This document shows, one piece after another, positions 24,232-40,610 of a stretch of 64,000 nt of DNA. Under the pieces are notes generated by a model, which saw only the letters and a list, made by a program, of their open reading frames with translations, ran no database searches and was not told the DNA's origin. This stretch comes from Clostridiales bacterium (GTDB taxonomy: Bacteria > Acidobacteriota > Aminicenantia > Aminicenantales > UBA8522), in the NCBI GenBank assembly GCA_029907205.1, contig JARYMI010000001.1:124001-188000 (forward strand). Direction: 5' to 3'. A program made the position numbers and the translations under genes. Position 1 is the first letter of the stretch. Each line of letters opens with the position of its first letter.

Positions 24232-25881
24232 ATGAAGCAAGCCCCGCCTTTGATCCAGAGCAAGAAGAAAACAAAGCTGAAAAATAAAACACCTCAACAT
24301 ACAAAAAAGGCTCTCGCCAGGCTCGAGCAGCGGCTTTACGAGCTCGAAAGAAAAGAGAGGAAACACCGCCTGACTGAAAAGGCCCTCCGGGAGAGTGAAG
24401 AGAAGTACCGGACCGTGGTCGACCGCGCAAACGACGGCATCGCCATCATCCAGGACAAGATCGTCCAGTTTGCGAACCCTCGGCTGTTGGAAATAGGCGG
24501 ATACTCAGCCGAGGAAGTCATCGGCCGCCCCTTCACGGATTTCCTGACAGAAAAAGAGCTTCAGCGCATGCTCACGGCTTATGAGCGCGGCCTGGCTGGA
24601 AACAACGGCCAGACGAAATTCGAGGTTTATCTCCGTAAGAAACATGGCGACCCTTTTATTGCCGAGATCAACTCGAGCATCATCCGCTACAAAAATAAGG
24701 AAGCGGCCTTAATCCTGGTAAGGGATTTTACCCAAAGGAAAAAAACTGAAAGGCTCAAAGAGTCGATTTTCCGCATTTCCGAAGCCGCCATCTCCTCTGA
24801 AAGCCTGGATGATCTCTACCTCTCCATCCATCAGGTCATCTCGAATTTGATGCCGGCCAAAAACTTCTACATCGCCCTGTATGACTCTGGGGCCGACCTC
24901 CTGAGTTTTCCCTACTTTGTCGATGAGTATGACCCACCGCCGCTGCCCAAGAAACCGGGAAAAGGCCTGACCGAGTACGTGCTCAGGACTGGCCGTCCCC
25001 TTCTTGCTTCACCGGAAGTCTTTGCCGAGCTCGAAGCACGAGGCGAAGTGGAATCTATCGGTGCCCCCTCTATCGATTGGCTGGGCGTGCCCTTGATCAT
25101 CAACGGCACGACGATCGGGGTTTTGGTTGTCCAGAGCTACACAGAAGGGACTCGCTACGGCAAGGATGAAATGGACATCCTCAAGTTTGTCTCTGACCAG
25201 GTCGCCATGGCTGTCCACCGCAAGAAATCAGAAGCTCAAATTAAAGCTTCTCTTGAAGAGAAAGAAGTGCTGCTGCGCGAAGTCCACCATCGGGTCAAGA
25301 ACAACATGCAGGTCATTTCTTCTCTCCTTAACCTCCAGTCCCGCCTCATCGCCGACCCCGCCGTCCTCGAAATGTTCAAGGACTCCCAGCGCCGCATCCG
25401 CTCCATGGCCCTCGTCCATGAACGCCTCTACCATTCCTCCGACCTCTCGCGCATCGAGTTTTCCCACTACCTTCGCAACCTCGCCACCCATCTCTTCAAC
25501 TCTTGCCAGGCCGACTCCTCCCGCATCCATCTCAGGTTAGACCTCGAAGAGGTCTTCCTCAACATCAACACGGCCATCCCCTGCGGCCTGATCGTAAACG
25601 AGCTCATCTCCAACGCCCTCAAGCACGCTTTCCCGGAGGGCCGGAGCGGTGAGGTGGCGGTAGAGCTCCGTCGAGTGGAAGGAGATGGCTACCTGCTAGG
25701 GGTAAGGGATAACGGCGTGGGCGTCCCGGAGGGGCTGGACTTCCGTCAGACAGAGACGTTAGGCCTTCAGATCGTCGTCACCCTGGTCAGCCAGGTCGCG
25801 GGGGAGCTCAAGATCGATCGTCAAAACGGCACGGCCTTCACGCTCGTCTTCAAGGAGCTGCCAATGAAAAAAAGGGCCTAA
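24232..25881 (+). CDS. PAS-GAF sensor histidine kinase (HisKA_2 type)
   Basis: A 549-residue soluble kinase with no membrane segment. A Lys-rich start and coiled coil (about residues 1-55) lead to a PAS domain (YRTVVDRANDGIAIIQDKIV), a GAF domain (residues about 180-330, ending QVAMAVHRKKSE), then HisKA_2 with the phosphorylatable His in LLREVHHRVKNNMQVISSLL (about residue 352). The HATPase domain has LIVNELISNALKHAF (N box) and VRDNGVGVPEG (G1). It is 4 bases upstream of a REC-PAS-HD-GYP protein, its likely partner, so the pair could control cyclic-di-GMP turnover in response to a cytoplasmic signal. Confidence 0.9.
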   Translation: MKQAPPLIQSKKKTKLKNKTPQHTKKALARLEQRLYELERKERKHRLTEKALRESEEKYRTVVDRANDGIAIIQDKIVQFANPRLLEIGGYSAEEVIGRPFTDFLTEKELQRMLTAYERGLAGNNGQTKFEVYLRKKHGDPFIAEINSSIIRYKNKEAALILVRDFTQRKKTERLKESIFRISEAAISSESLDDLYLSIHQVISNLMPAKNFYIALYDSGADLLSFPYFVDEYDPPPLPKKPGKGLTEYVLRTGRPLLASPEVFAELEARGEVESIGAPSIDWLGVPLIINGTTIGVLVVQSYTEGTRYGKDEMDILKFVSDQVAMAVHRKKSEAQIKASLEEKEVLLREVHHRVKNNMQVISSLLNLQSRLIADPAVLEMFKDSQRRIRSMALVHERLYHSSDLSRIEFSHYLRNLATHLFNSCQADSSRIHLRLDLEEVFLNINTAIPCGLIVNELISNALKHAFPEGRSGEVAVELRRVEGDGYLLGVRDNGVGVPEGLDFRQTETLGLQIVVTLVSQVAGELKIDRQNGTAFTLVFKELPMKKRA

Positions 25882-25885
25882 GCAG

Positions 25886-27259
25886 ATGGAAGGCATCCGG
25901 ATTTTGATTGTCGAGGATGAGGGCCTTGTCGCCCGCGATGTCGAGAACATGGCCAGGAGCGTGGGATACAAAGTCTGCGGCATCGCCAACACAGCCGATG
26001 AAGCCGTCGATATGGCCGGCCGCTTTCGCCCCGACCTTGTCCTCATGGACGTAGTTATCAAGGGAACGCTGGACGGGATCGCTGCAGCCGAGAAAATTTG
26101 GGAATCTTTCCACGTTCCGGTCATCTACGTCACAGCCTATGCCGACGAGTCGACCATCGAGCGGGCCACGATTACCGAACCCTTCGGGTACATTCTCAAG
26201 CCGTTCGACGAAAGAGAGCTCAAAATCGCCGTCGAAATGGCCTTCTACAAATCACGGATGGCCATGAAGCTCAGGGAAAGGGAAGAATGGCTGTCGGCCG
26301 TGCTCAAAAGCATAGGGGACGGCGTCATTGCCACCAGCAAAGAGGGTCTCATCACCTTCATGAACCCGCTGGCTGAAAAGCTCACCGGCTGGAGCTATGA
26401 TGAGGCTTTGAGAAGGCCTTTGGGCGAGGTCTTCAAAGCGGTCGAATTCGCAGGAGGAGCCAAGGCGGCGTCAGAACCCGCCCTCGAACCAACGGACAGA
26501 CACGTCAGGATGCACAGCGAGAGGATTCTTTGCGCCAAGGGCGGGCAGACCTTCCCTATTGAGGAGACGGTCATGCCCCTGAATGCTTCGCAAGGGAACC
26601 TGAGCGGTCACGTCCTGATTTTCCGCGATATCTCCGCCCGGAAACAAGCCGAGCAAGCGCTCAAAGAAAGCTGGGAGAACCTTCGCGAGGCCCTGGAAGG
26701 AGCGATCCAGGCTATGGCCCTGACGATCGAGATCAGGGACCCCTACACGGCCGGTCATCAACGCCGGGTGAGCAAGCTATCTTGCGCCATCGCCAAAGAA
26801 ATGGGGCTGCCGGAGGACCAGATCGAGGGCATCCGCGTTGCCGGCGATATCCACGACATCGGCAAGATCTACGTCCCGGCCGAAATCCTCAGCAAGCCGG
26901 GTCAGATCACAGCCATCGAGTACGGGATTATCAAGACCCATCCCCAGGTCGGCTATGAAATCCTCAAAACGATCAAGTTCCCCTGGCCAGTGGCCCAGAT
27001 TGTCCTCCAGCACCACGAACATTTAGACGGCTCGGGGTATCCGCTGGGCTTGTCCGGCGATCAAATCCTCAAAGAATCTAAGATTCTCATCGTGGCTGAC
27101 ACCGTGGAAGCCATGTCTTCCCACCGGCCTTATCGTCCTGCCCAGGGAATTGACAAAGCCCTCGATGAAATCATTCAGTATAAAGGGCTCTTCTATGATT
27201 CCGAGGCGGTTGACGCCTGTGTAAGGCTCTTTAAGGAAGAGGGCTTTCGGTTTGACTGA
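25886..27259 (+). CDS. response regulator with PAS and HD-GYP domains
   Basis: A 457-residue protein. The receiver domain has the acidic pocket VEDE, phospho-acceptor Asp in LVLMDVVIKG (about residue 54) and the conserved Lys in LKPFDEREL. A PAS domain follows (LSAVLKSIGDGVIATSKEG). The HD-GYP phosphodiesterase domain shows AGHQRRVSKL, the HD of GDIHDIGKI (about residue 322), HHEHLDGSGYP and the GYP signature itself. It should hydrolyse cyclic-di-GMP, gated by phosphorylation from the kinase 4 bases upstream. All main catalytic residues appear intact. Confidence 0.92.
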   Translation: MEGIRILIVEDEGLVARDVENMARSVGYKVCGIANTADEAVDMAGRFRPDLVLMDVVIKGTLDGIAAAEKIWESFHVPVIYVTAYADESTIERATITEPFGYILKPFDERELKIAVEMAFYKSRMAMKLREREEWLSAVLKSIGDGVIATSKEGLITFMNPLAEKLTGWSYDEALRRPLGEVFKAVEFAGGAKAASEPALEPTDRHVRMHSERILCAKGGQTFPIEETVMPLNASQGNLSGHVLIFRDISARKQAEQALKESWENLREALEGAIQAMALTIEIRDPYTAGHQRRVSKLSCAIAKEMGLPEDQIEGIRVAGDIHDIGKIYVPAEILSKPGQITAIEYGIIKTHPQVGYEILKTIKFPWPVAQIVLQHHEHLDGSGYPLGLSGDQILKESKILIVADTVEAMSSHRPYRPAQGIDKALDEIIQYKGLFYDSEAVDACVRLFKEEGFRFD

Positions 27260-28506: not shown

Positions 28507-29085
28507 ATGGAAATCCAGAGGAAAGTCAAGTACGAAGAGGAATTAGACAGACAATTCCTGGGCTTGGTCAAAGAGTTGTCCGGCTGTGAGGAGATCGACC
28601 GCTGCATCCAGTGCGGAACCTGCAGCTCCTCCTGCCCGATGTCGGTCTACATGGACTATCCCCCCCGCAAGATCATCGCCATGATCAAGAACGGGTTCAA
28701 AGAAGAAGCTCTCAAAAGCTTCACGATCTGGCTCTGCCCTTCCTGCTACACGTGCCAGGTTCGTTGCCCTGCCAACATCAAGATCACCGACGTCATGTAT
28801 GCCCTGAAGAGGATGGCTATCGGGGAGCGCGTCTACCCGGCCCGGTTCGCCATCCCCGTCCTTGACAAAGAGATGTCCAAGATCATCGCCTCGAACGGCC
28901 GGAATTCCGAGCTCTGGCTGATCCTCAACCTCTATCTTAAATCACGCAAGCCCTGGGGTCTCCTCAAGATGGCTCCTCTGGGTTTGAAACTCATGAAGAC
29001 AGGCCGAATGAGCCTGAAAAAGGAATCCATCAAAAACAAGGAACAGTTGCGGACTCTCTTAAAAGCCTTGAAGGAGGAAGCCTGA
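28507..29085 (+). CDS. hdrC: heterodisulfide reductase subunit C-like iron-sulfur protein
   Basis: A 192-residue protein with two [4Fe-4S] sites: CIQCGTCSSSCP near residue 34 and CPSCYTCQVRCP near 78. A helical C-terminus contains LYLKSRKPWGLLKMAPLGLK. HdrC carries electrons between the flavin subunit HdrA and the catalytic subunit HdrB. No membrane segments are seen, so it is the soluble form. ATG 28507 is preceded by AAGGAGG. It is the first gene of a 16-gene plus-strand run to mvhA, most gaps being under 12 bases. Confidence 0.93.
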   Translation: MEIQRKVKYEEELDRQFLGLVKELSGCEEIDRCIQCGTCSSSCPMSVYMDYPPRKIIAMIKNGFKEEALKSFTIWLCPSCYTCQVRCPANIKITDVMYALKRMAIGERVYPARFAIPVLDKEMSKIIASNGRNSELWLILNLYLKSRKPWGLLKMAPLGLKLMKTGRMSLKKESIKNKEQLRTLLKALKEEA

Positions 29086-29954
29086 TGAACGGGTATATCT
29101 ACTATCCAGGATGTTCTTTAAAGGGAAATTCAAAGCATTACGAAGAATCTATACTTCCGGTGTTCAGAGAAATCGATATGCAGCTCGACGAGCTCGAGGA
29201 CTGGAACTGCTGCGGCGCGACAGCCTATTTTTCAGTTGACGCCGGAAAGGCGGCAGCCATCTGCGGCCGCAACCTCTCCTTGGCTGAAAACCTCAACAAG
29301 GACATCATCGCTCCCTGCGCCGGCTGCTACCTGACACTCAAGAAATCCAACAAGTTCCTGGCCGGCGGGACCGAAAAAGCCCAAAAAATCCTCCGTGCCC
29401 TGGACAAGGCCGGCTGCAGCTACAGCGGCCAGGTGGATGTCAAACACCCCCTCGAAGTCCTTGTCCAGGACCAAAGGCTCGACAAAATCAAAGCTAGAGT
29501 AGAACGGCCGCTCAAGGGACTGCGCGTCGCCTGTTATTATGGCTGCCAACTGGTCCGGCCGTTCACGGATTTCGACGACCCCGATTATCCCGTGTCTCTC
29601 GACAGGCTTATGGCCGCAATCGGGGCCGAGCCGGTAGATTTTTCCGGCAAGACCCGATGCTGCGGCGGTTCGCTTACAGGCACGATCGAGGAGGTCGGGC
29701 TGAGGCTCAACTACATCCTTCTAAAAGAAGCTAAGAGGAAAGGCGCTGATGTCATCTCGACCATCTGTCCGCTCTGCCAGTTCAACCTGGAGATCCTTCA
29801 GGATAAAATGGTCAAGAAATACAAGGACAACATCACGATGCCCATTCTTTATTTCAGCCAGCTCATAGGGCTGGCCATGGGCTTGCCCAAAGAAGACATG
29901 GGTTTCTCTCGCTCGATCATCGACCTGAAACCGTTGTGGGAGAAAATCGGATAG
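29085..29954 (+). CDS. hdrB: heterodisulfide reductase subunit B-like (CCG domain) protein
   Basis: A 289-residue protein with two cysteine-rich CCG domains that bind the non-cubane [4Fe-4S] clusters of HdrB. Visible motifs are YYPGCSLKGNSKHYEES, DWNCCGATAYFS, and in the second repeat YYGCQLVRP, TRCCGGSL and CPLCQFNLE. In methanogens HdrB reduces CoM-S-S-CoB; in bacteria the disulfide or other acceptor is usually unknown. The start overlaps the hdrC stop (TGATG), implying coupled translation. Confidence 0.93.
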   Translation: MNGYIYYPGCSLKGNSKHYEESILPVFREIDMQLDELEDWNCCGATAYFSVDAGKAAAICGRNLSLAENLNKDIIAPCAGCYLTLKKSNKFLAGGTEKAQKILRALDKAGCSYSGQVDVKHPLEVLVQDQRLDKIKARVERPLKGLRVACYYGCQLVRPFTDFDDPDYPVSLDRLMAAIGAEPVDFSGKTRCCGGSLTGTIEEVGLRLNYILLKEAKRKGADVISTICPLCQFNLEILQDKMVKKYKDNITMPILYFSQLIGLAMGLPKEDMGFSRSIIDLKPLWEKIG

Positions 29955-29964
29955 GAGGACGGAA

Positions 29965-30819
29965 ATGAATCAAAACGGTCAGCCCAGAATCGGCGTTTTT
30001 GTCTGCCACTGCGGGACCAACATTGCCGGCAAAGTCAACGTCAGCGAAGTCGTGGACTTCGCCTCCCGGCTGGATAACGTCATCGTGGCCAAGGAATACA
30101 AGTTCATGTGCTCGGACCCGGGCCAGGAACTGATCAAGCAGAGCATCCGGGAGAACAACCTCAACCGGGTCGTCGTCGCCTCCTGCTCGCCGCTGATGCA
30201 CGAGCCGACCTTCCGAGGCACCACGGCCGAAGGAGGCCTCAACCCCTTCTACTTCCAGATGTCCAACATCCGCGAGCAGGTCTCTTGGGTCACTCAGGAC
30301 GCGGAGCAAGCGACCAGGAAAGCCAAAGCCCTGATTTCGGCCGCCGTCCGCCGTGTCGCCCTCCACGATCCCCTGGCCAGGAAGGAAGTTCCTGTCCGGC
30401 CCGAAGTCCTGATTGTCGGCGGAGGCATCGCCGGCATCCATGCGGCCCTGACCTACGCCAACTCTGGCAAGAAGGTCTATCTCGTCGAGAAACAGCCCTC
30501 CATCGGCGGCCATATGTCGCTTCTCGACAAGACATTTCCGACTCTTGACTGTTCGGCGTGCATCCTCACGCCAAAAATGAGTGAGGTGGGAAAACACCCG
30601 AATATCGAGCTTCTTACTTGGAGTGAAATCGAAGAAATCTCCGGCTACATCGGGAATTTCAAGGCCAAAATCAAGAAGAAAGCCCGCTACGTGGACATCG
30701 ACAAATGCAACGGCTGCGGCGCTTGTTGGGAAAACTGCCCGACGACCATCTCCCCCTCGGAAAGGATCATCCGCAAAGGAGATATCATCATCAAGAAAGT
30801 CGAACGCGAGCATTCCTAA
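29965..30819 (+). CDS. HdrA N-terminal half (FAD and one [4Fe-4S])
   Basis: This 284-residue protein matches only the first part of HdrA. It has the N-terminal RIGVFVCHCGTNIAGKVNV domain, the FAD-binding glycine motif VLIVGGGIAGIHAAL at about residue 149, DCSACILTPKM, and one ferredoxin motif CNGCGACWENCP at about 249, then stops. Full HdrA is about 650 residues. No reading frame continues it: the next gene, 1 base later, is an intact DRTGG protein. The missing C-terminal half is encoded 6.5 kb away, fused to a hydrogenase-type Fe-S domain (37356-39113). The two chains probably assemble the flavin site together. The first 260 residues closely resemble the start of the minus-strand HdrA at 54145-57549. 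Confidence 0.9.
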   Translation: MNQNGQPRIGVFVCHCGTNIAGKVNVSEVVDFASRLDNVIVAKEYKFMCSDPGQELIKQSIRENNLNRVVVASCSPLMHEPTFRGTTAEGGLNPFYFQMSNIREQVSWVTQDAEQATRKAKALISAAVRRVALHDPLARKEVPVRPEVLIVGGGIAGIHAALTYANSGKKVYLVEKQPSIGGHMSLLDKTFPTLDCSACILTPKMSEVGKHPNIELLTWSEIEEISGYIGNFKAKIKKKARYVDIDKCNGCGACWENCPTTISPSERIIRKGDIIIKKVEREHS

Positions 30820-30820
30820 G

Positions 30821-31186
30821 ATGAAACTCAGGGATATCCAGAAACTTCTCGAAGCCGAGCTCATCTGCGGCGAAGAAAGCCTGGATGAAGAAATCGACTA
30901 CGCCGGCGCTTCGGACCTGATGAGCGACGTCCTGGCCTTCGGCAAGCCCGGCCTTCTTCTCATCACCGGCCTGTCCAACGTCCAGTCTGTCCGAACGGCC
31001 GATATCATCGAAGCCAAGGCCATCGTTTACGTCCGCGGCAAGAAACCGGACAAGGACAGTATCGAGCTGGCCAAAAAAAAGGGAATCCCTCTCCTGTCGA
31101 CTCGACTGATGATGTACAAAACCTGCGGGCTTCTTTACAGTCAGGGCCTGTCCGGCATCGGAGAGAGCCAGAAAAAAGAGAGATGA
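30821..31186 (+). CDS. DRTGG-domain protein 1
   Basis: A 121-residue protein starting MKLRDIQKLLEAELICG with a glycine-rich core (YAGASDLMSDVLAFGKPGLL). It matches the DRTGG domain, a small regulatory module found near CBS pairs and phosphotransacetylases and also encoded in [FeFe]-hydrogenase operons of Thermotoga and clostridia. Ligand unknown. The ATG lies 1 base after the HdrA-N stop; an ORF reaching 30581 is an artefact of an open frame. A second copy is at 33007-33348. Confidence 0.82.
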   Translation: MKLRDIQKLLEAELICGEESLDEEIDYAGASDLMSDVLAFGKPGLLLITGLSNVQSVRTADIIEAKAIVYVRGKKPDKDSIELAKKKGIPLLSTRLMMYKTCGLLYSQGLSGIGESQKKER

Positions 31187-31629
31187 GTGAGGAGAATGAA
31201 CTATCCCAGATCTTCGAGATCCTGGGAGGCGACTTTGGCCACGCCGGCAGTGTCTCCACCAAGGTCAAGGAAATCCTCAAGGAAGTCGGCATCGATCCCT
31301 CGATCATTCGCCGGGCCGCCATTGTCGCTTATGAGGCAGAGATGAACGTCGTCATGTACGCGCGCAAGGCTCTCTTTGCCCTCACGTTGACGCCCGGGCA
31401 GATTCACTTCAAGATCGAAGACGAGGGACCCGGCATTCCCGACATAGAGCTCGCTATGCAGGAAGGGTTCTCCACGGCCACCGAGGAAATGCGGGAGATG
31501 GGGTTCGGCGCCGGAATGGGGCTCCCCAACATCCGGAAAAATGCTGACCGGTTCCTGATCTCTTCTCTCGTCGGCAGAGGGACGATGCTCAGCGTTTATT
31601 TTTTTCTTAATCAAGAGAGCAGGGGATGA
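31183..31629 (+). CDS. anti-sigma-factor-like GHKL ATPase
   Basis: A 148-residue protein with the Bergerat ATP-binding fold: N box VAYEAEMNVVMYA, G1 DEGPGIPD and G2 GFGAGMGLPN. It lacks a phospho-acceptor histidine domain, so it resembles RsbW/SpoIIAB-type serine kinases or switch ATPases. It is overlapped by the DRTGG gene before (4 bases) and the hydrogenase-like gene after (4 bases). Such ATPases occur with sensory hydrogenase clusters; the target is unknown. Confidence 0.83.
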   Translation: MSEENELSQIFEILGGDFGHAGSVSTKVKEILKEVGIDPSIIRRAAIVAYEAEMNVVMYARKALFALTLTPGQIHFKIEDEGPGIPDIELAMQEGFSTATEEMREMGFGAGMGLPNIRKNADRFLISSLVGRGTMLSVYFFLNQESRG

Positions 31630-33002
31630 GTCAGTATTATTATCATTCCATCCGCTTTGACCAGGAAAAGTGCAAGGGTCGGATGAAGTGCCTGCGGACT
31701 TGCCCGACCCAGGCTATCCGCGTCAGGGGAAGGAAAGCCGTCATGATCGAAGAGAGGTGCATCGACTGCGGAGAATGCCTCAACGTCTGCCCCTCTGGAG
31801 CCATCGTTCCCCTCACCGACCCGTTCGGCGAGCTGACCAGGTTCCGCCATACAGTGGCCGTCCCTTCTCCTGCCCTCTATGCCCAGTTCGGCCGAGAAAT
31901 CCTGCCCCACAAGATCCTGGCCGGCCTGAAAAAGTTGGGGTTCGACGATGCTTTCGACCTCGCCTACACCTGCGGCGAGGTAAGTTTTGCCATCCAGGAA
32001 TTCCTTCGCGAATACCAGGGGCCGAAGCCCGTGATCTCAAACGCCTGCCCGACGGTGGTCCGTCTTATCCAGGTTAAGTATCCCGACCTCATCGACCTCC
32101 TCATCCCGGTCAACACTCCCCGTGAGATAGCAGCCAAAAACATCAAGGAGAAAAAATCCAAGCAGTACGGCCTGGCCGAGAAAGAAATCGGCACCTTCTA
32201 CATCACGCCCTGCCCGGTCAAAATGATTTCCATCAAGCAGCCGGCCGAGAAAGGAAAATCCTATCTCGACGGAGCCCTCTCCATCAGCGACGTCTACGGT
32301 CCCCTCCTTTCCGCCATGGAAGGCGTGGAAAAAGAAAGCTACCGGAAAGCATTGGAGAGCATTTGCATCTTAGGCATAGGCTGGGCCATGGTCGGCGGCG
32401 TCTGCCGGACGCTCCGGTTACGGAATTCCTTGGCCGTCTCCGGTCTGACCGAAATTATCAAGGTTTTTGACGACATCGAGCGCGGAAGGCTCCGCGACAT
32501 CGATTTTCTCGAAGCTTATTCCTGTCCCCAGGGCTGCGTGGGAGGGTCGCTGACGGTCGAAAACGTTTACAGCTCCTACAACAAAATTCTCAAGCTCATC
32601 GAAACCCTGGAGTTCGAGAAAATAAAGGCCTGCCCTGATATCCGCGAAGTCAGGCGCCTGTACGCCCAAAAATATTTCTTCTTAGATAGAAAGATCGAGC
32701 CCCGGCCGCTCTCGCCCCTGGACGACGACCTGGGCCGAGCCATCAAGAAGAGAAAACAGAAGGAAGAAATCTACGAGGCGCTGCCCAAAATCGACTGCGG
32801 AGCCTGCGGCTCACCCGACTGTCTGACCTTCGCCGAGGATGTCGTCATGGAAAAAGCTCAGCTCTTCGAGTGTGTCTTCATGCTCCCGGAAAGATTCCGG
32901 GAGCTCTTCGAGGAGCTCATCGGCCTGTTCAACAAAGCCCTTTTCATCAACCAGGGGTCCCGACCCGGTGAGAAAGATTATAAGAAGGATAAAAAGGATT
33001 AG
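31626..33002 (+). CDS. sensory-type [FeFe]-hydrogenase-like protein
   Basis: A 458-residue protein. Two ferredoxin motifs (CKGRMKCLRTCP, CIDCGECLNVCP) precede a domain like the H-cluster domain of [FeFe] hydrogenase. Its three motifs are changed but keep the cluster cysteines: SNACPT (C141), TPCPVKM (C196) and SCPQGCVGG (C300, C304). The first motif reads NACP instead of SCCP, so the catalytic proton-relay cysteine is Ala. A C-terminal Fe-S domain has CGACGSPDC. This pattern fits sensory HydS/HsfB-like homologues, not a turnover hydrogenase. It sits between DRTGG and ATPase genes, a known set near electron-bifurcating hydrogenases, and may sense H2 or redox state. Confidence 0.82.
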   Translation: MSQYYYHSIRFDQEKCKGRMKCLRTCPTQAIRVRGRKAVMIEERCIDCGECLNVCPSGAIVPLTDPFGELTRFRHTVAVPSPALYAQFGREILPHKILAGLKKLGFDDAFDLAYTCGEVSFAIQEFLREYQGPKPVISNACPTVVRLIQVKYPDLIDLLIPVNTPREIAAKNIKEKKSKQYGLAEKEIGTFYITPCPVKMISIKQPAEKGKSYLDGALSISDVYGPLLSAMEGVEKESYRKALESICILGIGWAMVGGVCRTLRLRNSLAVSGLTEIIKVFDDIERGRLRDIDFLEAYSCPQGCVGGSLTVENVYSSYNKILKLIETLEFEKIKACPDIREVRRLYAQKYFFLDRKIEPRPLSPLDDDLGRAIKKRKQKEEIYEALPKIDCGACGSPDCLTFAEDVVMEKAQLFECVFMLPERFRELFEELIGLFNKALFINQGSRPGEKDYKKDKKD

Positions 33003-33006
33003 TCCC

Positions 33007-33348
33007 ATGAAACTCAAAGACATTATTGAAGCTCTCGGCCTGAAGGTTTTAACGGCCGCGGATAGACTTGACGTCGAAGCGAGCGGCGGCTATACAAGCG
33101 ACCTTCTCAGCGACGTCATGGCCAACAGCCGAGAAAAGAATATCTGGATCACCCTCCAGACTCATCAGAACATCGTGGCTGTGGCCAAGCTCAAAGACCT
33201 GGCCGCCGTCATCCTGGTCAACAGCCGGACGCCGGAAGCGGAAACCATGAAAAAAGCGGAAGAGGAAAAAATCCCGCTGCTCGGGACGGCCGATCCGGCG
33301 TTCATTATTTCCGGAAAGGTTTATAACCTCCTGGGCCAGAAGGAATAA
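33007..33348 (+). CDS. DRTGG-domain protein 2
   Basis: A 113-residue paralogue of the protein at 30821-31186, starting MKLKDIIEALGLKVL with GGYTSDLLSDVMANSREKN. It shares the MKL.DI start and the .SDLLSDV pattern. The start is ATG 33007, 4 bases after the hydrogenase-like stop. It is probably a regulatory partner in the same signalling block; ligand unknown. Confidence 0.8.
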   Translation: MKLKDIIEALGLKVLTAADRLDVEASGGYTSDLLSDVMANSREKNIWITLQTHQNIVAVAKLKDLAAVILVNSRTPEAETMKKAEEEKIPLLGTADPAFIISGKVYNLLGQKE

Positions 33349-33358
33349 GGAATAAAGA

Positions 33359-34090
33359 ATGCTCAAGGCTTTTCGGGCGGACCTGCACATCCACACCTGC
33401 CTGTCTCCCTGCGGTGAGCTGGAGATGTCTCCTCTGAGCATCGCGCGCACGGCGAGCGAGAAAAGCATCGATATCCTTGGGGTCTGCGACCACAATTCTG
33501 TCGAAAACGTCCCGGCCCTCAGGGAAGCTGCCAAGCCTTTTAAAATCGACGTCCTGGCCGGAATTGAGGTCGCTTCCGAAGAAGAGGTCCATGTCCTGGG
33601 CCTGTTTGATAGCCTCGAAGCAGCCTTCGAGCTCCAGGCCGTCGTCTACGATCACCTTCCCGGGGAGAACGATGAAGAGGCTTTTGGCCTGCAGGTTGTG
33701 GTAAATAGCGAAGGCGAGGTTCTCCGCATCAACAAGAAGCTTCTCATCGGCGCATCAACATTAACTCTGGAAAGAGTCGTGGAGCTTATCCACTCTCTGG
33801 ACGGCCTGGCCATTGCCTCTCACATTGACCGGGAAGGCTTCAGCCTGATCGGCCAGTTAGGGTTTGTCCCGGAAAATATTTCTATCGACGCGCTGGAGGT
33901 TTCCCCCCGGACGCCGTTCGAGGAGGCACAAAGAAAATTCAACTTCGGCTTTCCCTTAACGGCTTCTTCCGACGCCCACCGGCTGGAAGAGATCGGGCAG
34001 GCCACGACTTCGTTTCTTCTCCAGGCTGGAACCGTGGCAGAAATAAAGCTGGCCCTCCAGAAGGAAAGAGGAAGAAAAATCTTAAATTAG
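33359..34090 (+). CDS. PHP-domain metal-dependent phosphoesterase
   Basis: A 243-residue protein with the PHP signature residues: ADLHIHTCLSPCG (first HxH), VCDHNSVEN, Glu in AGIEVASEEEVHVLG, ASHIDREGFS and the final SSDAHRLEEIG. The PHP fold is a metal-dependent phosphoesterase such as nucleoside 3',5'-bisphosphatase or histidinol phosphatase. Inside hydrogenase operons (for example Thermotoga) its substrate is unknown. All expected metal ligands appear present. Confidence 0.88.
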   Translation: MLKAFRADLHIHTCLSPCGELEMSPLSIARTASEKSIDILGVCDHNSVENVPALREAAKPFKIDVLAGIEVASEEEVHVLGLFDSLEAAFELQAVVYDHLPGENDEEAFGLQVVVNSEGEVLRINKKLLIGASTLTLERVVELIHSLDGLAIASHIDREGFSLIGQLGFVPENISIDALEVSPRTPFEEAQRKFNFGFPLTASSDAHRLEEIGQATTSFLLQAGTVAEIKLALQKERGRKILN

Positions 34091-34098
34091 GAAAGAGC

Positions 34099-34647
34099 AT
34101 GGAGGACTTGTCTCTCCACATCCTCGATATCGCGGAGAATTCGATCGAGGCGCAGGCGACGACGATTGAAATCCGTTTGGAGGAAAACAGAAGACAGGAT
34201 CTTTTAACTCTTGAAATTATCGATAACGGCCGGGGCATGGACAAAAAAATGGTCAAACAGGCTGCTGACCCCTTCGTGACGACAAAAAAGACCCGTCGCG
34301 TCGGCCTCGGATTGCCGCTTCTCGCCGAAGCGGCCCGAGCCGCCAACGGCCGTCTCGACCTCGAGTCAAAGCCCGGCAAGGGCACCCGGGTGCGAGCGAC
34401 TTTCCAGCTCAGCCACATCGACCTCAAGCCGATCGGCGACATCGCCCAAACCCTCATCACGCTGATCGTCGGTTATCCCGCAGTGGATATTGTCTACGTT
34501 CACAAAGTCAACGACTCAGAATGTCGGCTCGATACAAAGGAAATCAAGTCCCAGCTTGACGGTGTCCCTCTTCAGTCTCCAGAAGTGCTCAAAATCATAA
34601 GAACTCATATAAAAGAAGGCTTAGACCAATTTAAGGAGGCAAAATGA
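34099..34647 (+). CDS. GHKL ATPase-domain protein (kinase-like)
   Basis: A 182-residue protein beginning with the N box (LHILDIAENSIEAQATTIEI), then G1 (IDNGRGMD), F box-like DPFVTTKKTRRVGLGL (G2) and GKGTRVRATFQ. It is a histidine-kinase ATPase domain without a dimerisation helix, plus about 70 extra C-terminal residues. In the Thermotoga hydrogenase operon a similar protein lies just upstream of the NuoE-like subunit, as here. It overlaps nuoE by 4 bases. Confidence 0.83.
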   Translation: MEDLSLHILDIAENSIEAQATTIEIRLEENRRQDLLTLEIIDNGRGMDKKMVKQAADPFVTTKKTRRVGLGLPLLAEAARAANGRLDLESKPGKGTRVRATFQLSHIDLKPIGDIAQTLITLIVGYPAVDIVYVHKVNDSECRLDTKEIKSQLDGVPLQSPEVLKIIRTHIKEGLDQFKEAK

Positions 34648-35099
34648 ATCACGCTAATATCACGGAGATCCTCAATAAGTATCAAGGTGACGAGAGTTCC
34701 CTCATCGCCATTCTCCAGGATATTCAGGAAGAGTACAGCTATTTACCCAGGGAGGCCCTGGTCCAGGTCTCCAAGGAGATGAACGTTCCCCTGAGCCGCG
34801 TCCTCAGTCTGGCCACATTCTTCAGAGCATTCAGCTTGAAACCCAAGGGCAAGCATTCCGTCCATGTCTGCCTGGGAACAGCCTGCCACGTCCGCGGCGC
34901 CCAGCGCGTCCTGGAAAAGTTCGAACGGGAGCTGGGACTAAAGTCCGGCGAGACGTCCGAAGATCTTCTCTTCAGCCTGGACGCTGTCCGCTGCTTGGGC
35001 TGCTGCGGCCTTGCCCCCGTGGTCCAGGTCGGTGAAGAAGTCCACGGAAAAATCACCCCGGCCAAGGTAACCGGCGTGATCAAGAAATACAGGAAATGA
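34644..35099 (+). CDS. nuoE: NuoE-like [2Fe-2S] subunit (HydC type)
   Basis: A 151-residue thioredoxin-fold protein with the four cysteines of a [2Fe-2S] cluster: VCLGTACHVRG and RCLGCCGLAPV. An N-terminal helical part (SLIAILQDIQEEYSYLPREA) is typical of NuoE and of HydC/HndA in electron-bifurcating hydrogenases. Together with the NuoF-like protein it forms the NADH-side module. It is followed by a second small 2Fe-2S protein and NuoF. Confidence 0.93.
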   Translation: MNHANITEILNKYQGDESSLIAILQDIQEEYSYLPREALVQVSKEMNVPLSRVLSLATFFRAFSLKPKGKHSVHVCLGTACHVRGAQRVLEKFERELGLKSGETSEDLLFSLDAVRCLGCCGLAPVVQVGEEVHGKITPAKVTGVIKKYRK

Positions 35100-35109
35100 G
35101 GAGGTCAGG

Positions 35110-35499
35110 ATGCCCAAATTAACCCTTGATGATCTAGCCAAGATCAGAGAGAAGACGAAAAGGCTGACGACCATCCGCGTAGGAGGAGAATACCGGGCCA
35201 AGGTCTGCGTCCACATGGGAACGTGCGGCATCGCCGCTGGAGCGCGGACGATTATGAACGCCTTGATGAAGGAGCTCGAGGAGCGAGAGATCCACGATGT
35301 CCTCCTCACCAACTCGGGGTGCGCCGGTCTGTGCAGCCGCGAGCCGATGGCCACCGTCGAGGTCGCCGGCCAGGCGCCGGTGAAATACGTCGACCTGACC
35401 GAGAAGAAGATCAAGGAGATTTTTGAAAAACATGTCCTCGGCGGCAAGATCGTCCAGGAATACGCGCTCGGCATCGGCAGCGAGAAGACGGACTATTAA
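35110..35499 (+). CDS. thioredoxin-like [2Fe-2S] ferredoxin
   Basis: A 129-residue protein with VCVHMGTCGIAAGARTIMNA and a second cysteine pair in NSGCAGLCSREPM, the pattern of the stand-alone 2Fe-2S domain found in HndB-type proteins. It is likely an electron-carrying subunit between NuoE and NuoF in the complex. The gene has short gaps on both sides (10 and 12 bases). Confidence 0.88.
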   Translation: MPKLTLDDLAKIREKTKRLTTIRVGGEYRAKVCVHMGTCGIAAGARTIMNALMKELEEREIHDVLLTNSGCAGLCSREPMATVEVAGQAPVKYVDLTEKKIKEIFEKHVLGGKIVQEYALGIGSEKTDY

Positions 35500-35511: not shown

Positions 35512-37344
35512 ATGGCAGAAATGGCCAAAGAAAAAGCATACCGAATTCATCTGATGGTCTGCGCCGGAACCGGCTGCGTTTCCAACAACGCCTTCGGCAT
35601 TAAGGCAGCCTTAGAGAGAGAGGTTAAGAAGCAGGGTCTGGAAAATGAGGTCCTTATCGTCACAACGGGGTGCAACGGTTTCTGTGAGCGCGGGCCGCTG
35701 CTCGTCGTCCAGCCTGGCAGCATTTTCTATCAGCAGCTAACCGAGAAAGACATCCCTCATCTCGTCGAGGAGCACTTCCTCAAGGGCCGGCCGGTCAAAA
35801 AGCTGATGTATACGCCGCCCAAGGAGAAAACGCCCGTCCCGGTCTTGAGCGACATCGACTTTTTCAAAAAACAGGTCCTCATTGCCCTGCGGAACAGGGG
35901 GTTAATCGACCCCGAGAAAATCGACGAGTACATCGCCCGCGACGGCTACAAGGCCGTAGCCAAAGCCCTGACCGAGATGGCTCCCGAGCAGGTCATCACC
36001 GAAATCGCCAATTCCGGGCTGCGCGGCCGGGGCGGCGCGGGGTTTCCGACGGGCCTCAAATGGCAGATGGTCCGGAATGCTCCAGCGTCGAACGGCAGCC
36101 TGAAATACCTCATCTGCAACGGCGACGAAGGCGACCCTGGCGCCTTTATGGACCGGAGCATTCTCGAAGCCGACCCCCATTCTGTCATCGAAGGGATGGT
36201 CATCGGCGCCAGAGCTGTCGGCGCCAGCGAAGGGTTTGTCTACGTGCGCAACGAGTATCCGCTGGCCATCAAGCGGATGAACATAGCCATCGAACAAGCT
36301 CGCGACTACGGACTCTTAGGGAACAACATCCTGGGCACGGGCTTCGACTTTGACATCAAGATCGTCCGCGGCGCCGGCGCCTTTGTCTGCGGCGAGGAAA
36401 CAGCCCTCATCGCCTCGGTGGAGGGCCGGTTGGGTGAGCCTCGGACGCGGCCTCCCTACCCTGCTCAGAGCGGCCTCTGGGAAAAACCGACGCTCATCAA
36501 CAACGTCGAGACCTGGGCCAATGTGCCCATCATCATCGACCGGGGTGCCAAGTGGTACGCCTCGATCGGCACACTCACGAGCAAGGGGACAAAAGTCTTC
36601 TCCCTGGTCGGAAAGATCAACAACACCGGGCTGGTCGAAGTCCCGATGGGCATCGCGCTCCGAGAAATCATTTACGACATCGGCGGCGGCATTCCGGGAG
36701 GAAAGGAATTCAAGGCCGTCCAGACTGGAGGCCCGTCGGGCGGCTGCATCCCCAAAGAGCAGCTTGACCTGCCCATCGACTACGAAAGCCTGACCGCTGC
36801 CGGCTCGATGATGGGCTCTGGCGGCATGGTCGTCATGGATGAAGACACCTGCATGGTCGATGTCGCCAGATATTTCCTCACCTTCACAAAGGATGAGTCC
36901 TGCGGCAAGTGCACTCCCTGCCGGGAAGGGACCAAGGCGATGTTAGACATCATCACCCGAATCACCGAGGGAAAGGGAACGGAGGAGGATCTGACCCTGC
37001 TTGAGGATATGGCTCACGCGGTCAAGGATTCATCGCTCTGCGGACTCGGCAAGACAGCGCCCAACCCTGTCCTGACGACGCTTCGTTATTTCCGGAATGA
37101 ATACGAGGCCCATATCCGGGACCGAAAATGCCCGGCCCACGTCTGCCGCCAGCTCAACGTCTATACCATCGATGAGAACCGCTGCCTCACTGTCGGCAAG
37201 GGCTGCGACCTCTGCCGGCGCAACTGTGCCTCGGACGCCATCCGGGGAGCGAAGAACGAGGCCCACCGCATCGTCCAGGAGAAATGCATCAAATGCGGCG
37301 TCTGCTACGACGTCTGCAATTTCGGCGCCGTTAAGGTTGATTAA
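35512..37344 (+). CDS. nuoF: NuoF-like NADH-binding flavoprotein (HydB/HndC type)
   Basis: A 610-residue protein. The N-terminal 2Fe-2S domain (CAGTGCVSNNA, TGCNGFCERGP) precedes the NADH/FMN domain: GRGGAGFPTGLKW, GDEGDPGAFMDRS, CGEETALIASVEG and NNVETWANVP. The NuoF cluster motif SCGKCTPCREGTK follows. Two C-terminal ferredoxin motifs complete it; the first is unusual (CLTVGKGCDLCRRNC), the second regular (CIKCGVCYDVCN). In HydABC/HndABCD enzymes this subunit holds the FMN and Fe-S relay used for NAD(H)-ferredoxin bifurcation. Here the catalytic HydA is not next; instead comes the HdrA chimera. Confidence 0.95.
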   Translation: MAEMAKEKAYRIHLMVCAGTGCVSNNAFGIKAALEREVKKQGLENEVLIVTTGCNGFCERGPLLVVQPGSIFYQQLTEKDIPHLVEEHFLKGRPVKKLMYTPPKEKTPVPVLSDIDFFKKQVLIALRNRGLIDPEKIDEYIARDGYKAVAKALTEMAPEQVITEIANSGLRGRGGAGFPTGLKWQMVRNAPASNGSLKYLICNGDEGDPGAFMDRSILEADPHSVIEGMVIGARAVGASEGFVYVRNEYPLAIKRMNIAIEQARDYGLLGNNILGTGFDFDIKIVRGAGAFVCGEETALIASVEGRLGEPRTRPPYPAQSGLWEKPTLINNVETWANVPIIIDRGAKWYASIGTLTSKGTKVFSLVGKINNTGLVEVPMGIALREIIYDIGGGIPGGKEFKAVQTGGPSGGCIPKEQLDLPIDYESLTAAGSMMGSGGMVVMDEDTCMVDVARYFLTFTKDESCGKCTPCREGTKAMLDIITRITEGKGTEEDLTLLEDMAHAVKDSSLCGLGKTAPNPVLTTLRYFRNEYEAHIRDRKCPAHVCRQLNVYTIDENRCLTVGKGCDLCRRNCASDAIRGAKNEAHRIVQEKCIKCGVCYDVCNFGAVKVD

Positions 37345-37355
37345 GGAGGTATGAG

Positions 37356-39113
37356 ATGGTAAACCTGACCATAGACGGAAAAAAGGTCCAGATTGAAGAA
37401 GGAAAAACGATCCTCCAGGCTGCCGCGAAGTGCGAAATCAAAATCCCGACCCTCTGCTATCATCCGGTTGTCGAAGCTTATGGCGCCTGCCGCGTTTGCA
37501 TGGTCGAAGTGACGGTGCGCGGAAAGACAGACCTCGTCACCGCCTGTAACACCAAGGTCCAGGAGGGTCTGGACGTCCAGACCGGTTCAGAGAGGGTCCT
37601 CAAGGCGCGGCGCCTGAACGTGGAAATGCTCATGGCCAGAGCTCCGGCGGCCGAGCCAGTCCAGGAGCTGGCTAAAGCGCTGGGCATCGAGAAAACGCGT
37701 TTCGAGATCAAGGACCCGCAGGAAAAATGCATCCTCTGCGGCCTGTGCGTCCGCGCCTGCGAGACCATCGTCGGCGCTTCCGCCATCAGCTTCATCGAGC
37801 GAGGAACGGAGCGAAAAGTCATGCCTCCTTTCGGCGAGCCCTCTGAGGCCTGCATCGGCTGCACAGCCTGCGCCTATTTCTGCCCCACTGGTGCTATCAC
37901 GTACGAGGATAAGTACGGAAGAAAGGTCATCCATACCGAACTCCATCTCGGCCCGACAACAGCCATCCGGGTGCCGATCCGCCAGGCCGTGCCGATGGTG
38001 CCGCTCATCGACACTGAAGCCTGTATCCATTTCAAGACCGGTGAATGCAAAGTCTGCACCAAAGTCTGCGACCGCGAGGCCATTAACCACGACATGCAGG
38101 ACGAGACTCTCGAAGTGGAGGTCGGGACGATCATCCTGGCCAGCGGCTTCAAGCCTTTTGACGCCAAACGCATCCCGGCTTATGGCTACGGCCACTTCCC
38201 GAACGTTATCACGGCCTTGGAGTTCGAGCGGTTGGTCAACGCCTCGGGGCCAACGGGCGGGAAAATAAAACTGGCCGACGGCACCGAGCCCAAGGCTGTG
38301 GGCATCATCCACTGCGTGGGCTCCCGGGATGAAAATTACAATGAATACTGTTCCCGTGTCTGCTGCATGTACTCACTCAAGTTCGCCCATCTTATCAAGG
38401 AAAAAACGAGCGCCGATGTCTACGATTTTTACATCGACATGCGCTGCTTCGGAAAAGGCTACGAAGAGTTCTACCACCGCTTGCTCCACGAAGGGACAAA
38501 GTTCATCCGGGGACGCGTCTCCGACATCACCGACATGGCCATGACCCAACGGGAGGAAGGGAAACTCATCATCCGCGTTGAGGACACGCTTCTCGGGACA
38601 GTCAGGCGAATCCCCGTCGATATGGTCATCCTGGCCACCGGTCTCGAGCCCAGCATAGACCACAACCAGCTGGCCAAAATCTTCAACATTTCCTGCAGCC
38701 AGGACACGTTCTTCCTCGAGCGGCATCCAAAACTCGCCCCCGTGTCCACCTTCTCTGATGGGATCTACCTCGCGGGAGCCTGCCAGGCGCCGCGGGATAT
38801 CCCCGATACGGTAGCCCAGGCCGGAGGCGCGGCGGCTGAAGCGCTGGCCCTGGCCGATAAGGGAACGTTCGCCCTCGAGCCGGTGACCGCCGAGATCGAC
38901 GAAGACCTCTGCGCAGGATGCCAGCTCTGCGTCAATCTCTGCCCCTTCACGGCCATCACCTACGACAAAGAAAAGGGCATCTCGGTCGTCAACGATGCCC
39001 TCTGCAAGGGCTGCGGCACCTGCGTTGCTGCCTGCCCGAGCGGCGCATCGCACCAGAAGCACTTCCGCGACTCGCAGATCTTCGCCGAGATCGAAGGAAT
39101 CTTTGTGGTCTGA
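37356..39113 (+). CDS. NuoG/HydA-like Fe-S domain fused to HdrA C-terminal half
   Basis: A 585-residue chimera. Residues 1-75 are a NuoG/HydA-type [2Fe-2S] domain (C34, C45, C48, C64). Residues about 120-180 carry two ferredoxin motifs, CILCGLCVRACE and CIGCTACAYFCP. The histidine-ligated cluster motif of NuoG is absent, and there is no H-cluster domain. From about 200 the chain is the second half of HdrA: GTIILASGFKPFD, IHCVGSRDENYNEYCSRVCC, FYIDMRCFGKGYEEF and the FAD-side AGACQAPRDIPDTVAQAG. Two final ferredoxin sites follow, CAGCQLCVNLCP and CKGCGTCVAACP. It lacks the GxGxxG flavin strand, which is in the separate gene at 29965. It probably links the NuoEF side to MvhD and HdrBC. Confidence 0.9.
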   Translation: MVNLTIDGKKVQIEEGKTILQAAAKCEIKIPTLCYHPVVEAYGACRVCMVEVTVRGKTDLVTACNTKVQEGLDVQTGSERVLKARRLNVEMLMARAPAAEPVQELAKALGIEKTRFEIKDPQEKCILCGLCVRACETIVGASAISFIERGTERKVMPPFGEPSEACIGCTACAYFCPTGAITYEDKYGRKVIHTELHLGPTTAIRVPIRQAVPMVPLIDTEACIHFKTGECKVCTKVCDREAINHDMQDETLEVEVGTIILASGFKPFDAKRIPAYGYGHFPNVITALEFERLVNASGPTGGKIKLADGTEPKAVGIIHCVGSRDENYNEYCSRVCCMYSLKFAHLIKEKTSADVYDFYIDMRCFGKGYEEFYHRLLHEGTKFIRGRVSDITDMAMTQREEGKLIIRVEDTLLGTVRRIPVDMVILATGLEPSIDHNQLAKIFNISCSQDTFFLERHPKLAPVSTFSDGIYLAGACQAPRDIPDTVAQAGGAAAEALALADKGTFALEPVTAEIDEDLCAGCQLCVNLCPFTAITYDKEKGISVVNDALCKGCGTCVAACPSGASHQKHFRDSQIFAEIEGIFVV

Positions 39114-39202: not shown

Positions 39203-39649
39203 ATGAGCAACGGAACTTTCGAGCCCAGGCTGGTCGGGTTCCTGTGCAACTGGTGCTCATACACAGGAGCAGACCTTGCCGGCACAGCGAGGATGATCTA
39301 CGCGCCCAACGTCCGCATCATCCGGGTCATGTGCAGCGGCCGTGTCGACCCTCAGTTCGTTCTTAAAGCCTTCAAGGAAGGGGCTGACGGCGTCCTGATC
39401 TCAGGATGTCACCCTGGAGACTGTCATTACAAGGAAGGCAATTATAAGGCTCTCAGGCGGTACAAGCTTCTCTTGAAGATGCTGGATCAATTCGGCATCG
39501 AAAAAGAGAGGTTCCGCTTGGAATGGGTGTCTGCGGCCGAGGGAGTAAAATTCCAGCACGTCTGCAACGAGTTCACTGAACAGGTCCGGAAACTGGGACC
39601 GCTCTATTTGTCCAAGAACGGAGGCAAACATGAGCAACGCGAAGCCTAA
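39203..39649 (+). CDS. mvhD: hydrogenase iron-sulfur subunit MvhD-like
   Basis: A 148-residue MvhD/FrhD-type protein. It has FLCNWCSYTGADLAG, RVMCSGRVDP, ISGCHPGDCHY and a late cysteine in FQHVC, the usual five or more cysteines holding a [2Fe-2S] cluster. MvhD links the hydrogenase (MvhAG) to HdrA. It overlaps mvhG by 20 bases and has a good AAGGAGG ribosome-binding site. Confidence 0.93.
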   Translation: MSNGTFEPRLVGFLCNWCSYTGADLAGTARMIYAPNVRIIRVMCSGRVDPQFVLKAFKEGADGVLISGCHPGDCHYKEGNYKALRRYKLLLKMLDQFGIEKERFRLEWVSAAEGVKFQHVCNEFTEQVRKLGPLYLSKNGGKHEQREA

Positions 39650-40610
39650 GGTTGCTTTTTACTGGTGCTCCTCGTGCGGCGGCTGCGAGGAATCTATTGT
39701 TGACCTGGCTGAAGATATCCTCAAAGTCGTCGCCGCCGTGGACATCGTTTTCTGGCCTGTCGCCCTCGACTTCAAGAAGAAGGATGTCGAGGCCATGCCC
39801 GACGGCTCCATCGCCGTGAGCTTCATCAACGGCGCCGTCAGGCTGAGCGAGCAGGAAGAGATGGTCAAGCTCCTTCGCCGGAAATCCCAGCTTGTCGTCG
39901 CCCACGGGGCCTGCTCTCATCTTGGAGGAATTCCCGGGCTGGGGAATTTCTGGAACAAGGAGACGATCTTCCGGCGCGCCTATCACACGACGCCTTCCAC
40001 ACAGAACCCGGACAAAATCGTCCCCCTGGAGAAAACGGTCCTTGACGGAAAGGAGCTCACCCTGCCCAGGTTTTTTGACACGGTGTATGCTCTCAACCAG
40101 GTTATCGACGTCGATTATTACCTGCCCGGCTGCGCGCCGCCCAGGGATCTCATCCTCAGCGCCGTAGGCGCCATTTTAGAGGGAAAGCTTCCGGCCAAAG
40201 GAGCCGTCCTCTCGCCCAACAAGTCTCTCTGCGACGATTGCGACCGCAACGACAGCAAGCCAGAAAAATTGGTCATCAAGGAGATCAAGCGTCCCTGGGA
40301 AATCATGTTAGACCCAGAAAAATGCTTCCTTGCCCAGGGAGTCATCTGCATGGGACCGGCCACCCGGACAGGCTGCAACGAGCGCTGCATAGAGGCGAAC
40401 ATGCCTTGCCGGGGTTGTTTCGGCCCCACCGACCAGGTCCATGACCAGGGCGCCAAGTTCCTCTCAGCCCTGGCTTCGATCTTAGACACGAACGACGAAA
40501 AGGAAATCGACAAGATCGTCCAGTCCATATCCGACCCTGCAGGAACCTTCTACCGCTTCAGCCTGCCCACATCTATCCTGCAGCGAAGACGCATGGAGGC
40601 CATAAAATGA
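39630..40610 (+). CDS. mvhG: [NiFe] hydrogenase small subunit, MvhG-like
   Basis: A 326-residue small subunit carrying the Fe-S relay from the NiFe site. Cysteine motifs are WCSSCGGCEESIVD (proximal cluster), AHGACSHLGGIPG, PGCAPPRD, CDDCDRN and the C-terminal CMGPATRTGCNERC with CRGCFGPTD. It lacks a twin-arginine signal, so it is cytoplasmic, as in group 3c hydrogenases. It overlaps mvhA by 4 bases. Confidence 0.93.
   Translation: MSNAKPKVAFYWCSSCGGCEESIVDLAEDILKVVAAVDIVFWPVALDFKKKDVEAMPDGSIAVSFINGAVRLSEQEEMVKLLRRKSQLVVAHGACSHLGGIPGLGNFWNKETIFRRAYHTTPSTQNPDKIVPLEKTVLDGKELTLPRFFDTVYALNQVIDVDYYLPGCAPPRDLILSAVGAILEGKLPAKGAVLSPNKSLCDDCDRNDSKPEKLVIKEIKRPWEIMLDPEKCFLAQGVICMGPATRTGCNERCIEANMPCRGCFGPTDQVHDQGAKFLSALASILDTNDEKEIDKIVQSISDPAGTFYRFSLPTSILQRRRMEAIK

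Follow-up and report, generated by a model that had tools for sequence, protein, structure and literature searches.

Group D proteins are the closest described relatives of the protein analyzed here. They have been called putative H2 sensors, and the TamHydS paper, in the part available, states that all members of the [FeFe] family share the H-cluster since HydE, HydF and HydG are well conserved (PMC8163306). As far as the accessible parts of three papers go, TamHydS of Thermoanaerobacter mathranii (group D/M2e) has two Fer4 modules, an H-domain and a C-terminal Cx2Cx4Cx16C motif without a PAS domain, is missing the relay cysteine, carries a hydroxyl residue at the M353 place and is encoded next to a histidine-kinase-like ATPase (PMC8163306, PMC10407848, PMC13104023). 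In the Bfu family, NuoE/F cores are combined with various modules, NiFe and Fdh among them (PMC9304861, in part); in the portions available, the NiFe or formate module joined to the NuoE/NuoF core of NiFe-HydABCSL and Fdh-Bfu is exchangeable, and their operons carry the regulatory or processing genes HydD, HydP and HisK (PMC9304861, PMC8880783). Two further systems may, by analogy and from partial texts, serve as precedents for what we propose below, i.e. Nar1/CIAO3 of eukaryotes, a cytosolic Fe-S assembly factor with a hydrogenase-like scaffold without an H-cluster, a C-terminal targeting tail and no bacterial operon partner (PMC12991071), and the group C1 proteins of Hydrogenedentota, in which H-cluster motifs are hardly found, H-cluster content is doubtful and the protein is joined to a HATPase domain (PMC11406978).

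The protein of interest is encoded in a stretch of 64,000 nucleotides that was analyzed as a whole (the window). The open reading frame at 31626-33002 (+ strand) starts with ATG and gives a 458-aa product, hereafter the window protein, in which a Pfam scan placed Fer4 modules at residues 9-60, Fe_hyd_lg_C (PF02906) at 75-307 (E 1.2e-27) and the FeS domain PF04060 at 386-418, and found no PAS domain. An earlier sequence-only reading of this DNA had described a sensory-type protein that retains all four [4Fe-4S]H cysteines and has Ala for the relay cysteine; this is confirmed, with the four cysteines at C141, C196, C300 and C304 and Ala at residue 140, which corresponds to C299 of CpI. Their conservation exceeds chance: an alignment of 79 relatives shows no substitution of C141, C196 or C304 and retains C300 in at least 90% of rows. 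The M353 place is occupied by the hydroxyl residue T194. In the first N-terminal cluster motif, Arg takes the place of the second Cys (C16-x2-R19-x2-C22-x3-C26). Full ligand sets are present in the other three sites: the second [4Fe-4S] motif (cluster 2), the H-site and the C-terminal Cx2Cx4Cx16C, which consists of C391, C394, C399 and C416. An AlphaFold2 model built with 79 sequences reached a mean pLDDT of 93.9 and its best VIA-align match was 8zqd_A (Z 33.2, rmsd 2.8, 344 residues). Because the model matches [FeFe]-hydrogenases, the fold of the window protein is predicted to be the hydrogenase fold. The absence of eukaryotic Nar1 chains from the 50 structure matches listed carries no evidential weight, and among the 25 of 57 NCBIfam families listed no model scored above its own cut-off for the window protein. 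By architecture and motif variants, the window protein resembles the group D, TamHydS-type proteins, in agreement with the sensory type originally suggested.

The gene is number 6 in an operon of 16 co-directional genes (all + strand) separated by gaps of -20 to +89 bases. The operon opens with genes for an HdrC-like 4Fe-4S dicluster protein (28507-29085; Fer4_8, E 9.4e-12; NCBIfam CoB_CoM_SS_C 84 bits, below cut-off), an HdrB-like CCG protein (29085-29954; PF02754, 96.2 bits) and the 284-aa N-terminal half of HdrA (29965-30819; aligning with residues 3-260 of HdrA 5odc_A, E 3.6e-100). They are followed by a first DRTGG-domain protein (30821-31186; PF07085 27.4 bits, cut-off 25.2) and an RsbW/SpoIIAB-like GHKL ATPase (31183-31629; HATPase_c_2, E 1.3e-7, and HATPase_c; anti-sigma F factor model 39 bits, below cut-off), with which the gene of the window protein overlaps by 4 bases, suggesting translational coupling. 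Downstream lie genes for a second, DRTGG-like protein (33007-33348), which has no Pfam match and was assigned by weak similarity to DRTGG rows and its conserved place in relatives, a PHP phosphoesterase-like protein (33359-34090; PHP, PHP_C) and a second GHKL ATPase (34099-34647; HATPase_c, E 1.8e-18). The NAD(H)/ferredoxin part comprises a NuoE/BfuC-type 2Fe-2S subunit (34644-35099; PF01257, E 1e-50), a thioredoxin-like 2Fe-2S ferredoxin (35110-35499; PF01257, 25.6 bits), a NuoF/BfuB-type FMN subunit with N-terminal 2Fe-2S and C-terminal Fer4 domains (35512-37344; Complex1_51K, NADH_4Fe-4S, 2Fe-2S_thioredx, Fer4), and a fusion of a NuoG/BfuA-type N-terminus with the C-terminal part of HdrA (37356-39113), in which residues 1-185 match HydA1 (8a6t_A) and residues 198-581 match HdrA 265-640 (8rvv_A, E 9.4e-121). 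The last genes encode MvhD (39203-39649; FlpD PF02662, E 2.2e-56), an MvhG-like NiFe hydrogenase small subunit (39630-40610; Oxidored_q6; VhuG model 221 bits, below cut-off) and an MvhA-like large subunit (40607-42067; NiFeSe_Hases; VhuA model 435 bits, below cut-off). The setting that the sequence-only reading had given, i.e. a NiFe/Hdr operon for a complex without [FeFe] catalysis of its own and with DRTGG, PHP and GHKL ATPase genes enclosing the gene in question, is thus borne out.

HdrA itself is split over 29965-30819 (about residues 3-260) and 37356-39113 (about 245-650) with nine genes between; because its halves are encoded by separate genes, the HdrA flavoprotein would be built from two chains. 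Both halves (283-293 aa and 582-590 aa) were found in 13 of 19 loci checked. By eye, sensor-kinase-like and response-regulator-like genes lie on both flanks of the operon (24232-27259 and 42187-44169), the last of which has a weak HATPase match.

Compared with the described systems, the window protein shares with TamHydS the domain order, the missing relay cysteine, the hydroxyl residue and the adjoining ATPase gene; unlike what the available parts of the TamHydS papers describe, its first Fer4 motif is one Cys short, the operon is of the NiFe/Hdr and not the HydABC type, the residues equivalent to E252, S249 and D265 are replaced, Arg stands at the Q325 place and the genome lacks HydEFG. The NuoE-like BfuC and NuoF-like BfuB subunits link the complex to the Bfu family; unlike Bfu complexes, the operon joins MvhDGA with HdrBC and a split HdrA, and its module includes a group D-like gene, of which the parts of the Bfu papers available make no mention. 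In contrast to the Hydrogenedentota group C1 proteins, the window protein is group D-like, keeps its cubane cysteines and has its HATPase in a separate gene.

Our working hypothesis, to which we assign a probability of about 0.5, is that the window protein carries [4Fe-4S] clusters only, has no [2Fe] subcluster, and serves the bifurcating NiFe-hydrogenase/Hdr complex as its redox sensor or governor; we propose no [2Fe] subcluster because known genes for its synthesis are missing from the genome. Two parts of this hypothesis can be graded separately: the protein very probably contains no H-cluster in vivo and, given this, a regulatory redox role appears somewhat better than an even bet. Specifically, a group D-type [FeFe]-hydrogenase scaffold would have been repurposed to hold only Fe-S cubanes in vivo, i.e. 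at the N-terminal site whose first motif is one Cys short, in the complete ferredoxin cluster, as a [4Fe-4S] cluster in the H-site and as a C-terminal cubane. These clusters may track the ferredoxin/NADH potential of the co-encoded NAD(H)/ferredoxin (Bfu/NuoEF-type) complex. A conformational signal would then reach both GHKL ATPases, of which the RsbW-like one is translationally coupled to the window protein, as well as the DRTGG proteins and the PHP phosphoesterase, and these partners would adjust the activity or assembly of the NiFe-hydrogenase/Hdr complex; the signaling from protein to ATPase is putative. Because the maturases are missing and most of the proton path is replaced (below), we regard the window protein, as judged by its sequence, as a group D-like variant and not as a member of the [FeFe]-hydrogenases. 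In the open-licence literature, as far as its texts were available, our search turned up neither group D-like genes described from genomes without maturases nor DRTGG genes described as adjoining hydrogenases.

In the phylum sample described below, the family of the window protein was defined by phmmer scores of at least 330 bits. In a tree of 111 family members and 14 outgroup rows, 49 rows including the window protein formed one branch (clade II; SH-aLRT 89), and the same split was supported at 96/97 after dropping eight long or near-duplicate rows and the outgroup. Another 58 rows make up clade I, and L221-L224 fall outside both clades and were excluded from the clade counts. The window protein clusters with HydABC-linked Clostridia proteins and apart from A and C types, in a tree that contains no named group D reference. 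HydA was a neighbor in 26 of 58 fetched clade I loci and in none of the 49 clade II loci, where NuoE or NuoF was found in 39, NiFe modules in 15 and molybdopterin formate-dehydrogenase-like modules in 15; in these counts, several partner-less loci end at contig ends. Maturases accompany 41/58 clade I rows and 6/49 clade II rows. The module of DRTGG, HATPase, group D-like, DRTGG, PHP and HATPase genes recurs in both clades in near-fixed order, with DRTGG and HATPase fused into one gene in six loci, and the same DRTGG/HATPase/PHP module adjoins true HydABC operons in Clostridia. Based on this pattern, the constant partner of the family is the NuoE/F core together with the ATPase module and not an H2-forming [FeFe] subunit. 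Two side observations concern single loci. The protein of L014 (Deltaproteobacteria RBG_16_49_23) sits in the Aminicenantes-type clade beside L011 (99*), reflecting either transfer or a mis-binned contig. By eye, the group D-like module of L062, L064 and L065 adjoins NuoEF and a glutamate-synthase-like protein of ~527 aa, and L064 also holds an mvhA-like gene.

These contexts bear on two alternatives in which the protein would have no sensory function. It could be a structural electron-transfer subunit whose cubanes connect NuoF with either ferredoxin or the Hdr branch without any regulation, as the many Fe-S sites, the overlapping position between hdr and nuo genes and the nearby NuoE/F in 39/49 loci would allow. 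We consider this unlikely: the group D-like gene and the DRTGG/HATPase/PHP module stay together even where the catalytic subunit differs, and, according to the available part of the report on it, purified NiFe-HydABCSL of Acetomicrobium consists of five subunits with HydD, HydP and HisK absent (PMC8880783), a comparison that would bear on the window protein directly if that operon has a group D-like gene. Alternatively, the protein could act in a Nar1-like manner as an Fe-S or assembly chaperone for NuoE/F or the NiFe modules. With Nar1 it shares the scaffold and, very probably, the lack of an H-cluster (PMC12991071, in part), its module remains constant across different catalytic subunits and the three-Cys motif could be labile; on the other hand, the neighboring GHKL ATPases and PHP protein look regulatory, and all sites but the first N-terminal motif have full ligand sets, making this possibility rather less probable still.

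The proposed absence of the [2Fe] subcluster rests on the maturases. The host genome (3.26 Mb, 92.75% complete) encodes the window protein as its sole PF02906 protein. Model searches, in which Thermotoga maritima served as positive control and scored over cut-off for HydE, HydF and HydG, gave no match for HydG, none for HydE at E 1e-30 and nothing over cut-off for HydF (best 86.5 vs 325.6 bits) in the host genome; because all 14 control genomes also give HydF matches, over the cut-off in T. maritima and otherwise under it, the sub-threshold matches are other GTPases. Next, we considered a phylum sample of 247 genomes, 56 of which have PF02906, and scored as canonical the 36 genomes with a best match >250 bits, leaving 20. 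HydG was over cut-off in 35/36 genomes with canonical PF02906 vs 0/20 without (Fisher p 2.7e-14), the single canonical exception being G136, a genome of 67% completeness in which HydG gives a partial match. Family members are carried by 23 genomes of the sample. All three maturases are missing from the 18 carriers without a match >250 bits, which are 84-100% complete, and the five carriers with maturases (G021, G030, G068, G196, G231) all have canonical HydA. Of the 18 maturase-free carriers, 16 have no PF02906 type other than the family, while G064 and G211 hold a further, weaker one. HydE, HydF and HydG are likewise absent from nine further genomes, those of the named loci L010-L018, mostly titled Aminicenantes; two of them seem to duplicate G154 and G194, with identical family protein scores, giving seven distinct genomes. 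Separately, in G022 (L080) and G035 (L081) the only PF02906 protein has 676 aa and falls with C-type rows in the tree, and neither genome has HydE, HydF or HydG over cut-off.

Beyond the phylum, profile A1 detected a family member in 78/157 genomes (at least 358 bits) of the class of L019 (Hespellia), which we take to be Clostridia, and in 24/198 genomes (at least 341 bits), plus one truncated, of the Deltaproteobacteria-type phylum represented by G251. The HydG search covered 80 of these 103 carriers and was positive in 40/55 Clostridia and 4/25 Deltaproteobacteria-type carriers; the 36 HydG-negative carriers were retested for HydF and PF02906 types alongside three positive controls. HydF was missing from all 21 HydG-negative Deltaproteobacteria-type carriers, and 20 of them have no other PF02906 type. 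Because two of the carriers without HydG and HydF, G443 (contig 3,416,895) and G427 (3,655,731), are essentially single-contig, and the 18 carriers of the phylum sample that lack a canonical hydrogenase are negative at 84-100% completeness, we rejected incomplete assembly as the general cause of missing maturases. Among the 15 HydG-negative Clostridia carriers, 13 have canonical hydrogenases, and 11 of these also lack HydF. These eleven, with a canonical group A hydrogenase but no HydG/HydF over cut-off, are the essentially single-contig G319 (L226, L227), G390 (L228), G271 and eight more Clostridia genomes; the motifs look intact in G319 and G390, the two read. These Clostridia reflect either assembly gaps or divergent maturases, and the inference from maturase absence is therefore strongest where no canonical hydrogenase is present.

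For TamHydS, the available part of one study proposes E252, E289, S249 and D265 as the group D proton path and reports that E252 variants lose all but <0.01% of their H2 oxidation, while H2 evolution stays at 10-20% (PMC10407848). We mapped this path onto the window protein by spacing (37, 3, 13) and clade I column content, the TamHydS sequence itself not being in the alignment. In clade I, the corresponding columns hold E in 47/58 (259), E in 58/58 (296), S or T in 44/58 (256) and D in 48/58 (272), and the window protein has V259, E296, V256 and S272, so that three of the four path residues are replaced and the group D path is not preserved; V259 stands for Glu at the E252 place, where such a change reportedly abolishes H2 oxidation. 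The E252-type Glu is kept in 20/49 clade II rows, which counts against the [4Fe-4S]-only hypothesis. The Aminicenantes-type clade (14 rows) invariably combines I, M or V at 259 with Arg at 166, which corresponds to Q325 of CpI; Arg166 is found in 39/49 clade II vs 0/58 clade I rows. At the CpI C299 place, 43/58 clade I rows have Ala and clade II is mixed (T, V, A, F, S, Y, L). K199 (the K358-type Lys) and P165 are retained in the window protein, and the K199 equivalent is lost in one formate-dehydrogenase-linked branch. Of three candidate marks, two were rejected and one, pocket relaxation, was weakened. Loss of the E252-type Glu is not a perfect mark of maturase-free genomes (Glu in 30/61 maturase-free and 39/50 maturase-bearing rows). 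Clade II [2Fe]-pocket positions are more variable than all positions (p 0.01), but this weakens to p 0.16 against clade-I-conserved positions, i.e. once prior conservation is controlled, leaving a pocket relaxation that is suggestive only. Cubane ligand loss is not general, as C300 is His in only 2/49 clade II rows, L069 and L072, from genomes with HydE, HydF and HydG. In these two proteins (of G068 and G030), a Tyr at the relay position accompanies the His, despite HydEFG and another, canonical hydrogenase in their genomes.

The sequence-only reading had spoken of an H-cluster protein implying H2 or redox sensing, and had itself named the absence of HydEFG with loss of H-cluster pocket residues as the outcome that would leave a protein holding only Fe-S clusters. 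The maturases are indeed absent; as for the pocket, the proton path is gone at V259, V256 and S272, whereas the cubane cysteines and K199 remain. An H-cluster protein is consequently not what these data favor, and sensing of H2 gives way to the redox half of the suggestion as the better alternative. To be a true H2 sensor, the protein would need a full H-cluster, and the maturases that build it would have to be unrecognised or encoded outside the assembled sequence. In favor of such a sensor, and counting against the [4Fe-4S]-only hypothesis, the four cubane cysteines, K199 and P165 are kept, and the eleven Clostridia with canonical HydA but no HydF/HydG matches imply that an absent match does not prove an absent H-cluster everywhere; moreover, TamHydS spontaneously takes up synthetic [2Fe], according to the part of the report available (PMC8163306). 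Set against this are HydG in 0/20 phylum genomes without a canonical hydrogenase, the two single-contig carriers without HydG and HydF, a proton path lost at 3/4 positions and the additional ties of clade II to formate dehydrogenase operons, and we judge an H2 sensor improbable. Finally, a non-functional hydrogenase relic, for which the absent maturases and lost proton path could be cited, is largely refuted by sequence conservation, given the open frame, 25 invariant columns across 79 relatives and a position in a compact operon that is maintained across several lineages.

We therefore retain the [4Fe-4S]-only redox governor as the preferred reading of the window protein. More tentatively, and with somewhat less than even odds, a widespread clade may have given up the diiron site and serve, in several lineages, as a general redox governor of FMN-type bifurcating complexes with any substrate (H2 through NiFe modules, or formate). 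If true, this would be a bacterial counterpart of the repurposing of Nar1, and even those group D 'H2 sensors' that do bear an H-cluster might in essence be reading the ferredoxin/NADH redox state and not H2. A clade with cubane ligands and regulatory neighbors, without maturases and beside formate dehydrogenases would separate the sensing module from H2 chemistry, so that what HydS-type proteins sense becomes directly testable. The same pattern cautions against scoring genes of this kind as H2-evolving [FeFe]-hydrogenases when they turn up in metagenome-assembled genomes.
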